In this document: piece after piece, positions 3,959 to 51,518 of the stretch
Numbering within the stretch: position 1 is the first letter of the stretch
Layout of the letters: every line of letters begins with the position of its first letter
NCBI GenBank assembly: GCA_022571295.1
Contig: JACZYA010000007.1
Coordinates: 1-51,518 of the forward strand
Reading direction: 5' to 3'
DNA from: Acidobacteriota bacterium
GTDB lineage: Bacteria; Acidobacteriota; Terriglobia; Acidiferrales; 2-02-FULL-67-57
Length of the DNA stretch: 51,518 bases
The notes under the pieces: generated by a model
The model's database searches: none
Seen by the model: only the letters and a program-made list of their open reading frames with translations
What the model was told of the DNA's origin: nothing
Program-made: the position numbers and the translations under genes

Positions 3959-4334
3959 TGTTGATCCGTAGCGATTTGAGGAATTTTCTGTCTTGGGGAG
4001 TAATGGTCAAAGAGGATTTCGTTCTCGTCTTGCGTTCCCGCTTTTCTCCATCCAGCCGAATTTTCAATGATTTAAGAAAGCGCTGATCGTCGGAGGCGAT
4101 TTCCGCCGTTTCCTCGGCCGGCTCGCCCGCCGGGCGTTTGTTGAGCGCAACCACGGCGTCTAGCATTAAGAAGACATCGTACCCGTGGGCCTTGATGCGC
4201 GCAATCGTGTCGGAGATGCGATCCGAGTCCGATACTGCTTCGTTGATGGCGCGCCCCAGCTCGCGCAACAACTGCTTCATGCGATTTTCCAATTGCACGC
4301 TTTGTCCTTCCGCCCTGCCTTGGATCGCTCTCAT
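3942..4334 (-). CDS. Hypothetical cytoplasmic protein
   Basis: Unrecognised 130-residue protein without signal peptide or membrane segment. The first two thirds are helical and charged (LENRMKQLLRELGRAINEA). An internal near-repeat stands out: DDQRFLKSLKIRLD in the middle and QDRKFLKSLRINID at the C-terminus, so two copies of one motif are present. It is the first gene of a two-gene minus-strand unit with the exported protein downstream. The function cannot be inferred from sequence. Confidence 0.65.
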   Translation of the reverse strand: MRAIQGRAEGQSVQLENRMKQLLRELGRAINEAVSDSDRISDTIARIKAHGYDVFLMLDAVVALNKRPAGEPAEETAEIASDDQRFLKSLKIRLDGEKRERKTRTKSSLTITPQDRKFLKSLRINIDNLK

Positions 4335-4435
4335 TTGAATTCTATGCCCGTCCCCAAAAAAGTGTCAAGCGAAAGGGAGACATGCTCTTGCGGGAATAGG
4401 AGTGAGTTGAGTACCATGCCGGTTCGTTGATTTCC

Positions 4436-6057
<1,622 letters not shown>

Positions 6058-47790: not shown

Positions 47791-48243
47791 TTAGTAGAAG
47801 CTCCGGTCGGTGTCCACCAGCAGGGTCACCGGCCCCGCGTTCACCAGTTCCACCTCCATCGTCGCCTGGAAGACGCCGGTTTCTACCTTCAGCCCGCGAT
47901 GCCGGAGCACGTGGAGGAATTTTTCGTAGAGCACCTGCGCCTGGGCGGCGGGGGCGGCGCGGTCAAAGCTGGGGCGGCGGCCCTTGCGGCAGTCGCCGTG
48001 CAAGGTGAACTGGCTCACGACCAGGACAGCGCCGCCGACTTCCCCGACCGAGCGGTTCATTTTGCCGTTGTCGTCGTTGAAGAGGCGCAGCCCGGCGATC
48101 TTCTCCGCCAGTTGGGCGGCGTCGGCTTCCGCGTCGGTCTTGGCCACGCCCACGAGCACCAGCATCCCCTCCCCGATTTCGCCGGTGGTTCGACCGTCCA
48201 CTTCGACCCGCGCCCGGCTGACTCGTTGCACCACTGCTCGCAT
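47791..48243 (-). CDS. dtd: D-aminoacyl-tRNA deacylase
   Basis: DTD of 150 residues (family about 145-150); it hydrolyses D-aminoacyl-tRNAs and glycyl-tRNA-Ala errors in the cytoplasm. The two active-site motifs are present: [18 protein letters not shown] and [12 protein letters not shown]. The ATG at 48243 begins the conserved [11 protein letters not shown] and has AAGGAGAG upstream. It is divergent from merR and the first gene of a unit with the two permeases. Confidence 0.95.
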
Positions 48244-48335
48244 CTGCGTTGCTCTCCTTTCTTTCTCGATGATAAGCAATTTCATTGTCGCGTTACTATA
48301 CGTTCCGGTCAACGCAGTTATTTCGGGGAAAAGCC

Positions 48336-48367
48336 TTGACTCTATAGCCAGCTATAGGGTTTAGACT
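48336..48367 (+). promoter_or_regulatory. MerR-type promoter/operator
   Basis: -35 TTGACT (48336-48341) and -10 TAGACT (48362-48367) are separated by 20 bp, the over-long spacing typical of MerR-activated promoters. The spacer holds the dyad ACTCTATAG-CCAG-CTATAGGGT (48339-48360) with 8 of 9 arm positions paired. The start codon of merR (48374) lies about where transcription should begin, so the message is probably leaderless and the regulator controls its own operon. Confidence 0.85.
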
Positions 48368-48373
48368 GTAGGC

Positions 48374-48817
48374 ATGAGCGCGCGGCTCTTTATCGGCAAA
48401 GTCGCCCAGGCGGCCGGCCTGAGCGTGCAGGCGGTGCGCTACTACGAGCGGCTGGGGTTGCTGCCGCCCGCGGAGCGGACGGCGGGAGACTACCGCGCCT
48501 ATCGCCCCGAGGCGGTGGAGCGACTACGGTTCATCCGCCAGGCGCAGGCGGCGGGTTTTCGGCTGGAAGAAATCCGGGAGATTTTGCGGATGAAGTTTGC
48601 CGGGCAGTCGCCTTGCGAGTGCGTGCGCACGATGCTGCAACGGAAACTGGAAGAGGTGGAGGAGCAGATGGCGGCGCTGGGGCGCTTTCGGAAACAACTG
48701 CGGCGAACCTTGCAGCGAGCTCACTCATTGCCCCGCCTGCCACATCGGGCCAGCGCCATCTGTCCGATGATCGAAAGTATGCCTACGGTCGGAAACAAGG
48801 GAGGCAAGAAGCGATGA
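48374..48817 (+). CDS. MerR-family metal-responsive regulator
   Basis: MerR protein of 147 residues. The winged helix is standard (LFIGKVAQAAGLSVQAVRYYERLGLLPP), followed by the long dimerisation helix (EVEEQMAALGRFRKQLRRTL). Metal-site candidates are Cys81 and Cys83 (SPCECV), His117/His124 and Cys130 (AICPMIE). The first region and the late CPxI match mercury- and zinc-sensing MerR/ZntR proteins, but the cysteine usually found shortly before the CPxI segment is missing. It ends in TGA, and the same frame stays open to 48946. Confidence 0.92.
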   Translation: MSARLFIGKVAQAAGLSVQAVRYYERLGLLPPAERTAGDYRAYRPEAVERLRFIRQAQAAGFRLEEIREILRMKFAGQSPCECVRTMLQRKLEEVEEQMAALGRFRKQLRRTLQRAHSLPRLPHRASAICPMIESMPTVGNKGGKKR

Positions 48818-48827
48818 GGGGCGCAGC

Positions 48828-48844
48828 GGTCGGGTTGGCCGACC
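48828..48844 (+). other. SECIS-like hairpin downstream of the merR UGA
   Basis: A perfect 6-bp stem GGTCGG/CCGACC with loop GTTGG lies with its loop 17 nt after the merR TGA. This meets published bacterial SECIS criteria (stem of at least 4 bp, G at loop position 1 or 2, 16-37 nt distance). It may mean read-through of merR, or be an unrelated structure. Confidence 0.4.
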
Positions 48845-48901
48845 ATGGGTGGATTCGAGCAAGCATGCGGCGTTGTGGAATGCCGAGAAAGGAGGCAGAC
48901 G

Positions 48902-48946
48902 ATGTGTCCATTGTGTCCGTATTGCCCGGATGACGGCTGCTGCTAG
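48902..48946 (+). CDS. 14-residue cysteine-rich microprotein
   Basis: The frame encodes MCPLCPYCPDDGCC and stops at TAG: six cysteines in fourteen residues. AAAGGAGG at 48888-48895 stands 6 nt before the ATG, an ideal ribosome-binding site. Spaced CxxCxxC and a terminal Cys pair would bind a soft metal ion. It sits between the MerR regulator and the MerT-like selenoprotein, so it should be expressed with them. The frame is also in phase with merR across its TGA, leaving the alternative that it is a C-terminal extension of the regulator. Confidence 0.65.
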   Translation: MCPLCPYCPDDGCC

Positions 48947-49060
48947 GCGGTCGTGATTCGCATAGTCCCGCCGAGAAGGTGGCGGGCGAACCGGCTGCGG
49001 GGGTGGAGCGGCCGATCCACTCCCAGCCGATTCGGACAGCGGCAAGATCAAGAAGGAACG

Positions 49061-49363
49061 ATGCGAGAAAAACCTTCCAGCGCGGTGAGCGTTCTGCTGG
49101 CGGTTCCCTGGTGTTGAGTGGCCCCGGCGCTGCTGTCCACGTTTGCGGTGGGTGGCGCCGCGGCGGCTCGGGGAGTCGTCGGCCAACTCTTGCCCTGGTT
49201 GTTTCTGGGCACGGTGGGCTTCCTCGCCTACGCGCACTATTTGGCTTGGGTGCGAGGGCACGGGCGCAGGGCAACCCGGTGGATTCTGGGAATCAACACA
49301 GTGATGGTAGTGTACTTCTGGTACGGGCGGGTGCGCTTTTGGGTCGAAGGCTGGTTGAGCTAG
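49061..49363 (+). CDS. MerT-like membrane selenoprotein (Cys-Sec pair)
   Basis: Translated with TGA (49115-49117) as selenocysteine, this is a 100-residue protein with three TM segments. The first contains PWCUVAP, with Cys18 and Sec19 at the place of the vicinal Cys-Cys in MerT helix 1 (ACCLGP type). The second is LLPWLFLGTVGFLAYAHYLAW, the third WILGINTVMVVYFWY. Read without Sec, the gene would need to start at a GTG directly after the TGA with no ribosome-binding site and half of helix 1 missing. GAAGGA precedes the ATG. It should carry Hg(II) or a similar ion across the inner membrane. Confidence 0.82.
49131..49157 (+). other. Candidate bacterial SECIS for the MerT-like UGA
   Basis: Stem CTGTCCAC (49133-49140) with GTGGGTGG (49148-49155), extendable by two pairs to 49131/49157, includes G-U pairs. 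The loop GTTTGCG has G first and begins 24 nt after the UGA. All three properties fit the bacterial SECIS pattern. Confidence 0.65.
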
Positions 49364-50184
49364 TTCTGCTGGCGGTGGTGCTCTGGCTGCCGGGCGCAGC
49401 GCAGGCGCAGATTGTGGCGCCGGGCGGGCGCACGCTGTTCAACCGGGCGGTGATGGTGCGCAGCTTCGTGCGCATCGACAACTTCGCCGAAGGCGTGCCG
49501 GGGGTGCGCGTGCGGCGCGTAGTCAATCCCTACGCGGTGGTCTGGGGCGCCTACCCGCATCTGAATTTGACTTTTGTAGCCCCGCTGGTGAGCGTGCAGA
49601 GCGACGCGCCCGGCCTGCCCGCGCGCAACTTCACCACCACCAGCTTCGGCGACGGGTTCATCTTTGCCCGCTACGACCTGCTGCGCAAGAACGTGCGCGG
49701 CGGATTCACCCGGCTCTCGCCCGAGATCGGCGTGAAGCTGCCCAGCGGGGGCGCCTTCGGCAGCGGCTCCACCGATCCCATCGCCGCGCTCATTTTCTCT
49801 CACGTGCGCGACCCGCATTGGTTCATCGCCGACGCCGAGTTCACCTACACCACCACCGGCGACGGCGGCCTGCGGCAGGGAAACCACTGGAACTACGACC
49901 TCGCTTACCTTTATCGTGTGCTGCCGCGCGGCGGGCTGGGCATCCCCGCCTTGTATTTGGTGCTGGAGATGAACGGCCAGCACATGCGCCGGGCGCGGCT
50001 GGGCGGGGCTAAGCTGCCCGACACCGGCGGCAATTTGGTTTTCTTGTCACCCGGAATCGAGTTCATGGCATCCAATCGGGTGGTGTTAGAATTCTCTTCG
50101 CCCATCCCGGTGGGGCGGGATTTGAACGGCTCGCAATTGAAGCCGACTTCCAGCTTCATCTTGGGGATTCGGTGGTTGTTTTGA
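49339..50184 (+). CDS. Outer-membrane beta-barrel transporter of the mer-like operon
   Basis: Protein of about 281 residues. From a TTG at 49339 it begins with a clear signal peptide (VELVLLAVVLWLPGAAQAQ) and continues as an all-beta barrel with alternating strands (LNLTFVAPLVSVQS, FGDGFIFARYDLL, LSPEIGVKLPSGGAFG) ending in IRWLF. It resembles the MetA/phenol-degradation type transporters (PF13557-like). The start overlaps the end of the MerT-like gene by 25 bp; other starts are possible because the frame is open from 48979. In context it should let the metal ion or its ligand through the outer membrane. Confidence 0.75.
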   Translation: MGRRLVELVLLAVVLWLPGAAQAQIVAPGGRTLFNRAVMVRSFVRIDNFAEGVPGVRVRRVVNPYAVVWGAYPHLNLTFVAPLVSVQSDAPGLPARNFTTTSFGDGFIFARYDLLRKNVRGGFTRLSPEIGVKLPSGGAFGSGSTDPIAALIFSHVRDPHWFIADAEFTYTTTGDGGLRQGNHWNYDLAYLYRVLPRGGLGIPALYLVLEMNGQHMRRARLGGAKLPDTGGNLVFLSPGIEFMASNRVVLEFSSPIPVGRDLNGSQLKPTSSFILGIRWLF

Positions 50185-51146
50185 TGAATCGGATAACGCT
50201 CAGCTTGGTGAGTCTGTCGGCTGTCCTGCTGGCGGCCTGCGCGCGCGAACCGGCGCCCCCGCCGGAGCCGGTCGGGGCGCACTACCATTTGCTGGCAGTG
50301 TGGGGTGAGTCCGGCCGGGAGCCGGGCCAGTTCGACGGCGTGCAGGGGTTGGTGGTGGATGCGCAGGGCCAGGTGTACGTGGCCGACGCGGAGAACTGCC
50401 GCGTGCAAGTCTTCACCAACGCAGGAGAATTTCTGCGCATGTGGGGCAAGTGCGGGGAGCGGCGGGGCGAGTTCCTCAAGCCGGTGGACGTGGCGGTGGG
50501 TCGCGGCGGCGAAGTGTTGGTGGTGGACTTCATGCTCGACCGGGTGCAGGTGTTCGACCGCGAAGGAAATTTCCTGCGCCAGTGGGGGCGCTCAGGGAAA
50601 CGCAACGGAGAGTTTTCCGCGCCGGTTGGTGTGGCAGTGGATTCCGAAGGGAACGTCTATGTGACTGACTTCTACAACCATCGCGTGCAGAAATTTTCTT
50701 CGCAGGGGAAGTTTCTGGCTGCGTGGGGGGTGGACGGCGGGGCCGAGGGCCAGTTGCATTACCCGGGGAAGTTGACGGTGGCCGCCGACGGAAATATCTA
50801 CGTGGCCGATGCGCACAACTACCGCGTGCAGAAGTTTGATTCCGAAGGGAAGTTCCTGGCAACGTGGGGAACTTCGGGCACTTGGCAGGGGCAGTTCCAG
50901 GACCCGACCGATCTGGTCGTGGACCGGAACGGAAACCTGCACGTGGCCGACAGCGGCAACTTCCGCGTGCAGTGGCTGGACGCGGAGGGGAACTACCTGG
51001 CGGAGTGGGCGGTGCCGGAAAGCGCCGGGCCCAAGTTCCAGTCTCCGCAGGCGCTGGCCCTGGATGCCGAGGGATTGCTGTACGTCAGCGACGCCGCCAA
51101 CAATCGCATCTATAAATTGGAGGCGGTGACAGGGAGGCAGGAATGA
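50184..51146 (+). CDS. NHL-repeat lipoprotein
   Basis: Lipoprotein of 320 residues. The signal ends in lipobox LAAC (about 15). The mature part is a six-bladed NHL propeller, each blade with the pattern GLVVDAQGQVYVADAENCRVQVF (for example at about 57, 104, 151, 198, 245, 292). Such propellers act as protein- or ligand-binding scaffolds. Its ATG shares one base with the stop of the barrel gene, and its stop overlaps the HMA gene (ATGA), so translation is coupled across the operon. A role in the metal system is inferred from position only. Confidence 0.88.
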   Translation: MNRITLSLVSLSAVLLAACAREPAPPPEPVGAHYHLLAVWGESGREPGQFDGVQGLVVDAQGQVYVADAENCRVQVFTNAGEFLRMWGKCGERRGEFLKPVDVAVGRGGEVLVVDFMLDRVQVFDREGNFLRQWGRSGKRNGEFSAPVGVAVDSEGNVYVTDFYNHRVQKFSSQGKFLAAWGVDGGAEGQLHYPGKLTVAADGNIYVADAHNYRVQKFDSEGKFLATWGTSGTWQGQFQDPTDLVVDRNGNLHVADSGNFRVQWLDAEGNYLAEWAVPESAGPKFQSPQALALDAEGLLYVSDAANNRIYKLEAVTGRQE

Positions 51147-51518
51147 ACAAACAAGTACGCCGGGCAATTTTTTCCATCGCGCTCTTGAGCGCTTTCGGGC
51201 TTGTGGCTGCGGCGCCGGCCGCGGCGCAGGTGGAAAGCGCGCGGGTGCGCGTTGACGGGATGTCTTGACCGCTTTGAGCCTACGGGGCAGAAAAAGCCCT
51301 GCGACGCCTGGATGGCGTCGGCCAAGTGAAGGTGGAGTTGAAGACCGGCCAAGCGGTCGTGCGGCCGGCGGAGGGAAAGAGCTTCGACCCGACACAGATT
51401 CCGCGGGCGATCAAGGACGCCGGTTTCGACGCGGGAGAAATTGAGCTGACCGCGGTCGGGACGCTGGGTAAGCAGGAAGATTTCTTACTGTTGGAGCTGT
51501 CCGGTGCGGTGCGCAAGT
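51143..51518 (+). CDS. MerP-like HMA-domain selenoprotein with Sec-x-x-Sec (partial, runs off window)
   Basis: With TGA read as selenocysteine, the visible 125 codons give a signal peptide (FSIALLSAFGLVAAAPAAAQ) and an HMA ferredoxin-like domain: RVRVDGMSUPLUAYGAEKAL, LDGVGQVKVELKTGQAVVRP, IPRAIKDAGFDAGEI. In MerP and copper chaperones the motif is GMxCxxC; here both Cys are TGA (Sec42 at 51266-51268, Sec45 at 51275-51277). Without Sec there is no usable start for the rest of the domain. AGGGAGG lies 5 bp before the ATG. The sequence continues past the domain (LGKQEDFLLLELSGAV) and is cut by the window end. Confidence 0.85.
51283..51320 (+). other. Two tandem SECIS-like hairpins for the HMA UGA codons
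   Basis: Hairpin 1: CGGGGC/GCCCTG (51283-51288, 51296-51301), loop AGAAAAA, loop start 21 nt after the first UGA. Hairpin 2: perfect 7-bp CGACGCC/GGCGTCG (51302-51308, 51314-51320), loop TGGAT, loop start 32 nt after the second UGA. Both loops have G in position 2. Each UGA thus has its own element within the 16-37 nt window. Confidence 0.7.

Follow-up and report, generated by a model that had tools for sequence, protein, structure and literature searches.

Does the operon at the end of a 51,518-nucleotide contig from an Acidobacteriota bacterium (GenBank assembly GCA_022571295.1, contig JACZYA010000007.1) handle a soft metal, and does it do so with selenocysteine (Sec) in place of cysteine (Cys)? 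The window, by which we mean this whole stretch, is the entire contig C112 of a groundwater-type bacterium. Its positions 48336-51518 hold, in order, a promoter, merR, a 14-codon Cys-rich open reading frame (ORF), a MerT-like gene, an outer-membrane beta-barrel gene, an NHL lipoprotein gene and a MerP-like gene, inside which the contig ends at position 51518. As predicted from sequence, this conserved MerR-led operon has an outer-membrane side and carries Sec at three positions that are likely to bind metal. We put slightly above an even chance the reading that it is a MerR-controlled operon for the capture and relay of a soft metal, most likely Hg(II), by ligand exchange via selenols.

Both predicted transport components are encoded across in-frame UGA codons. 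The MerT-like gene (49061..49363, + strand) would encode a membrane selenoprotein of 100 aa with three likely helices, as judged by eye; its UGA at 49115-49117 would give the first helix a vicinal Cys-Sec pair (PWCU), so that one Cys of the pair is retained. The protein appears MerT-like by motif and position only: the MerT model NF033560, whose cut-off is 130 bits, gave E=2.8e-4 and 21.2 bits, and Pfam gave no PF02411 match. The MerP-like gene (51143..51518, + strand, its 3′ end on contig C121) would encode a periplasmic selenoprotein with an HMA domain (PF00403, E=1.7e-12, above cut-off) and the motif GMSUPLU, with UGAs at 51266 and 51275. Its predicted ligands are Sec, and the MerP model TIGR02052 scored 37.8 bits against a cut-off of 92.6. 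A second, C-terminal domain showed just weak DUF4431/DUF5818 matches, and an OB fold would be a guess; a structure model from a two-sequence alignment reached a predicted local distance difference test (pLDDT) score of 55, too poor for a structure search.

The genome encodes the machinery to read these codons as Sec. tRNA-Sec (selC), SelB, SelA and SelD were all found above curated cut-offs, and SelD (L116, G000:C258:3829-4758) is probably a selenoprotein itself, because it carries one in-frame UGA of its own. Other family members share the UGA positions (UPLU at three loci, PWCU at two), and because the frames stay open and homologous past each UGA, these codons are not chance stops. The contrary view, that the UGAs are true stops in decayed genes, has a negligible probability: it is refuted by conservation, since the UGA positions are common to many species and the downstream frames are intact, and the Sec machinery and the hairpins described below also stand against it. 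The first-pass annotation had proposed that selenols replace thiols in the MerT-like and MerP-like parts, and the conserved UGAs, complete Sec machinery and conserved MerP hairpins bear this out. It was also right that conventional gene calling fails here, as plain start-to-stop ORF calling breaks both Sec genes. PWCU also occurs in L011 and L080. Elsewhere in the phylum, vicinal Sec-Sec pairs lie in a membrane helix in L083 (7692-7991, + strand, PWUU) and L084 (4122-4427, − strand, ALUU), with barrel and NHL genes adjoining.

Two hairpins directly downstream of the MerP UGAs are candidate selenocysteine insertion sequence (SECIS) elements. The loop of hairpin 1 (51283..51301, + strand) lies 20 nt beyond the first UGA, and that of hairpin 2 (51303..51319, + strand; GACGCC-UGGAU-GGCGUC) lies 31 nt beyond the second; a G in the apical loop of a stem just 3′ of the UGA was thus found for MerP. 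We aligned 13 Sec-x-x-Sec genes, gap-free from the first UGA. Hairpin 1 was paired in 89.7% of cells, with 3 pairs changed on both sides, compared with 61% in homologues of the Cys and Sec-x-x-Cys forms; hairpin 2 was paired in 100% of cells, compared with 33%, and had the core ACGCC-UGGAU-GGCGU with an invariant loop GG and an outer pair that covaries between G-C and A-U. Over both hairpins, 94.9% of pair cells were standard and four pairs were altered on both sides. The covariation score was higher than in any of 500 shuffles or any slid register; this register control leans toward the hairpin structure because the structure was picked from the tested sequences. Among twelve homologues of the Cys-x-x-Cys or Sec-x-x-Cys form, the hairpin columns paired in 47.2% of cells, inside the slid-register range, and RNAalifold independently recovered two nearly identical hairpins. 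A first automatic SECIS scan using single-sequence shuffles was indecisive, whereas the alignment test was decisive. We infer that one hairpin serves each MerP UGA; such a tandem SECIS arrangement, one per UGA at a spacing of nine bases, would add a second new feature to the system. The stem-loop behind the MerT UGA (49118..49168, + strand; −31.3 kcal/mol, z −1.7, and z −3.4 for its counterpart in L011) is suggestive of a SECIS element.

The gene set recurs in relatives, which we searched within Acidobacteriota. Two members of the same family carry the same genes: G002 (L011; Acidobacteria metagenome-assembled genome NC_groundwater_678), with PWCU and UPLU, and G003 (L024), with UPLU and a locus cut inside MerT. 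Among 19 loci of the phylum anchored on MerP (L074-L092), the barrel was present in 17, an NHL gene in 10 and a MerT-family gene in 9. The stronger, reverse test was anchored on the barrel alone: this search, itself weak, placed a MerP-family gene next to the barrel in all seven loci from relatives of the same order (L103-L109, in G053, G026, G017, G056, G055, G015 and G039), each with Sec-x-x-Sec (GMTUNFU). Unrelated control stretches of the window and its genome gave zero barrel, NHL or MerT matches and one weak MerP match. Because these three lines agree, the barrel and MerP, often with NHL, are a conserved unit, and the operon is real in that its set is retained by relatives throughout the phylum. 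The barrel and NHL genes, which the earlier annotation had counted as operon parts, are constant companions in relatives, and conservation of the gene set there passes the refutation check that the annotation had set itself. A plasmid search returned only two HMA-domain matches, both in P-ATPase contexts, and a search of viral contigs returned no match.

The barrel gene (49339..50184, + strand) has a probable TTG start at 49339 and encodes a signal peptide. PF13557 matched the window barrel at E=6e-4 and 6 of 14 homologues, at best 1.4e-15, and against the PDB the barrel profile matched FapF alone (E=0.002); a structure model from a two-sequence alignment, with pLDDT 30, was too poor for a structure search. 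The predicted lipoprotein (50184..51146, + strand; 320 aa, lipobox LAAC) has six repeats of PF01436 (E=3.5e-46), making its identity as an NHL beta-propeller protein unambiguous by homology.

The layout agrees with a single transcription unit as first annotated, with six genes behind one MerR-type promoter. This promoter (48336..48367, + strand) consists of TTGACT, a 20-bp spacer and TAGACT, as read from the sequence; the spacer (CTATAGCCAGCTATAGGGTT) contains the inverted repeat CTATAG-n4-CTATAG. At the head of the L011 locus, TTGACT-CTAGAG-n4-CTCTAG-GGGT-TTAGCCT retains the dyad with both arms altered relative to the window. The overlapping stop and start codons that the first-pass annotation also described are present: the end of the MerT-like gene overlaps the barrel start, and ATGA overlaps join the barrel TGA to the NHL ATG at 50184 and the NHL TGA to the MerP ATG at 51143. 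The merR gene itself (48374..48817, + strand) encodes a MerR-family regulator of 147 aa with Pfam MerR domains above cut-off. Its best equivalog was MerR (97.6 bits, under the cut-off of 150.9), and its nearest solved regulators were the Hg-sensing MerR structures 5crl and 4ua1. In the 5crl alignment with Tn501 MerR, C82 and C126 are present and an extra Cys adjoins C82. At the metal-valence position the protein has Cys, not the serine (Ser) found in the monovalent-metal CueR group.

The mer-like character ascribed to the operon is supported by relatives in which the module stands beside recognizable mercury genes. In G170 (L082), MerT (PF02411 above cut-off), HMA, CopZ-like, barrel, NHL and MerP (UPLU) genes are contiguous on one strand. 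G155 has a run of MerR, thioredoxin-like (Trx-like), MerT, barrel and MerP (UGLU) genes with another MerR-MerT set after it; in this genome (L099) a MerA above cut-off with a C-terminal CC lies 6.2 kb downstream of MerP. L089 contains a barrel, a CsoR-like gene, Sec-MerP, MerT, a CopZ-like gene and a MerC/MerF-like gene, together with a reductase whose score does not make it a MerA. We favour soft-metal handling, most likely of Hg(II), because elsewhere the module adjoins true MerT and, in one case, has a true MerA 6.2 kb away. In L080, L089 and L090, oxidoreductases that carry GTCALRGCDPKK and lie near MerT looked MerA-like in a local search. We count none of them as MerA, because the L089 and L080 proteins match glutathione reductase better and fall below the MerA cut-off. 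They form a subgroup of flavin disulfide reductases (L080 16961-18001, L089 2039-3529, L090 3415-4449).

Under the mercury-type reading, the metal would switch on MerR at the long-spacer promoter. The barrel would pass the metal across the outer membrane, with the NHL lipoprotein as a putative envelope partner. The periplasmic MerP-like protein may then bind the metal through its Sec-x-x-Sec pair and pass it on to the inner-membrane MerT-like protein, whose first helix holds the receiving Cys-Sec pair. The identity of the metal, its inward direction, the roles of the barrel and NHL proteins and the fate of the metal are inferred in this scheme, the last because no MerA was seen in the host genome. 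Only tentatively do we suggest an envelope-spanning wire of selenols, in which the barrel and NHL protein feed a soft metal, Hg(II) or another, to Sec-x-x-Sec MerP and on to Cys-Sec MerT, free of MerA and ending in some putative sink.

Several results weigh against mercury. The regulator lacks C117 and with it the full set of three Cys ligands, the HMA domain matches CopZ models no worse than MerP models, and the same-order relatives yielded no MerT by the models used. The host genome, 98.6% complete, has no MerA above cut-off (the two best matches, at 356.7 and 344.4 bits against 454.5, are without a C-terminal Cys pair), and PF03243 (MerB) gave no match in that genome in a search run without a positive control. 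In the three same-order loci that were read, a TlpA/ResA-like lipoprotein forms a tight set with the barrel and Sec-MerP. The absence of MerA, the missing Hg ligand of MerR and this TlpA-like partner in cousins leave some probability to copper or redox roles. Of the earlier reading as soft-metal uptake or detoxification, mercury as the metal, inward transport and detoxification are not established: this genome has no MerA above cut-off, and the set also lies near CopZ-, CsoR- and TlpA-type genes.

The Sec HMA protein might instead chaperone Cu(I) or Ag(I) in the periplasm, in which case the MerT-like protein would move monovalent metal, whether for supply or to detoxify it. The CopZ scores suit this alternative, as do the CopZ-like and CsoR/RicR-like genes that adjoin the module in L082 and L089 and the solved HMA relatives, which are mostly copper proteins; we nevertheless consider it rather unlikely, because the regulator is nearest to Hg and Cd sensors, with Cys at its metal-valence position, and because 9 of the 19 loci include a MerT-family partner. 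Less likely still is a periplasmic redox role, in which a Sec-x-x-Sec diselenide trades electrons with a thioredoxin-like partner and metal binding is secondary. Sec is mostly catalytic in known selenoproteins (PMC13188914), and a TlpA/ResA-like gene directly follows Sec-MerP in L104, L105 and L108 and lies upstream of it in L087; the window operon, however, is without a thioredoxin gene, and its HMA fold, its MerR and MerT partners and a Cys-Sec pair within a MerT-type membrane helix all indicate metal. Handling of an organometal or selenium-bound metal, similar to the Sec-assisted organometallic (SAO) system, seems quite improbable to us. Further multi-selenoprotein metal operons are known (PMC13188914) and organomercury biochemistry includes Sec proteins, but this operon has no ABC genes, and the MerB search of the genome, run without a positive control, was empty.

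Compared with the Tn501-type mer operon (merR-merT-merP-merA), the window shares the MerR-led long-spacer promoter, the periplasmic HMA protein and the small inner-membrane protein whose first helix bears a vicinal ligand pair. It differs in having Sec for Cys in both transport parts, in lacking the cytoplasmic MerT Cys pair and a MerA above cut-off in the genome, and in adding the barrel, the NHL lipoprotein and the second MerP domain. Individual parts have precedents. In 2008, a Sec-containing MerP and a putative mercuric transport protein with Sec were listed from marine metagenomes as single proteins (PMC2398784), with Sec in the same two protein types and no mention of a barrel and NHL operon, and PF02411 with C/SxxU appears in PMC13188914. 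NF041115 (UxxU metal-binding selenoprotein; 38.8 bits to the window, cut-off 95) and NF045683 (MerT/CopZ fusion-like; 30.3 bits to the HMA part alone, cut-off 375) resemble the window in HMA with Sec-x-x-Sec and in MerT/CopZ association, whereas in the window MerT and MerP are separate genes and the latter has an additional C-terminal domain. The SAO system (PMC13188914) likewise groups several selenoproteins of one metal-related pathway in an operon; its listed parts are an ABC transporter and a MerB-like lyase, and not MerT, MerP, a barrel or NHL. FapF has weak profile similarity to the window barrel, which has no fap genes near it and stands in a metal-gene context. An incomplete literature check found no prior description of the operon, of its barrel and NHL parts or of the tandem hairpins. 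The word "undescribed" in the first-pass annotation may hold for the operon but is too strong for its parts, and we regard the system as an apparently undescribed version of mercury-type uptake machinery, with Hg(II) as its putative metal.

Within the MerP family of the phylum, Sec-x-x-Sec, Sec-x-x-Cys and Cys-x-x-Cys forms occur at the identical two positions. A tree of 25 sequences groups the forms, with three changes compared with 10.1 under shuffled labels; its rooting and deep forks are weak and give the Sec/Cys change no direction.

The least supported part of the operon is the 14-codon Cys-rich ORF (MCPLCPYCPDDGCC; 48902..48946, + strand), whose coding status is uncertain. The ORF annotated there is present behind a strong ribosome-binding site, but elsewhere it has a relative in one family member only (L011, MGPCCPFPCCPDDGGR at 4718), at a different place in the locus, and a pattern search for the peptide in 396 genomes matched the window alone. 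After the short ORF, a GGAGTGGAGCGGCCGATCCACTCC-like near-palindrome, possibly an attenuator or protein site, lies at 48990-49025 of the window (GGGGTGGAGCGGCCGATCCACTCC) and at about 4770-4810 of L011. The L011 locus (G002) also has an exported Cys-rich protein of 70 aa ahead of merR (906-1118) and a Cys-rich ArsR/SmtB regulator after MerP (4301-4687), which is followed by the second Cys-rich short peptide. Upstream of the operon, a reverse-strand gene named by eye as D-aminoacyl-tRNA deacylase-like (47791-48312) has a homologue in the same place in L011. At the other end, contig C121 (L073, minus strand) begins with GGAKAKELEGRAELLGKRLRVTGKLHPSHTDRPPGLTVERW, the absent MerP end according to a profile search and the L011 comparison; C112 and C121 do not overlap, and by the L011 alignment the gap between them would be about four codons. 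Next on C121 is a 691-aa protein (L073 1197-3272, − strand, G000:C121), a YpdA-like NAD(P)/FAD domain fused to a NapH-like 4Fe-4S membrane part, and then an opposite-strand gene common to L011 and L024. The YpdA/NapH-like protein was set aside as the system's reductase, since no copy follows MerP in L011 or L024.

Sec is known mostly as a catalytic residue, and selenolates are very strong mercury ligands. In this operon Sec is predicted at expected metal-ligand sites in consecutive steps of one pathway. The Sec-x-x-Sec motif with its two adjacent hairpins would clearly test how SelB reads closely spaced UGAs. The finding is also relevant to metagenome surveys of mercury genes, because start-to-stop gene calling breaks both transport genes. 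The operon suggests that mer-type systems may have an outer-membrane side, which is absent from the classical operons.

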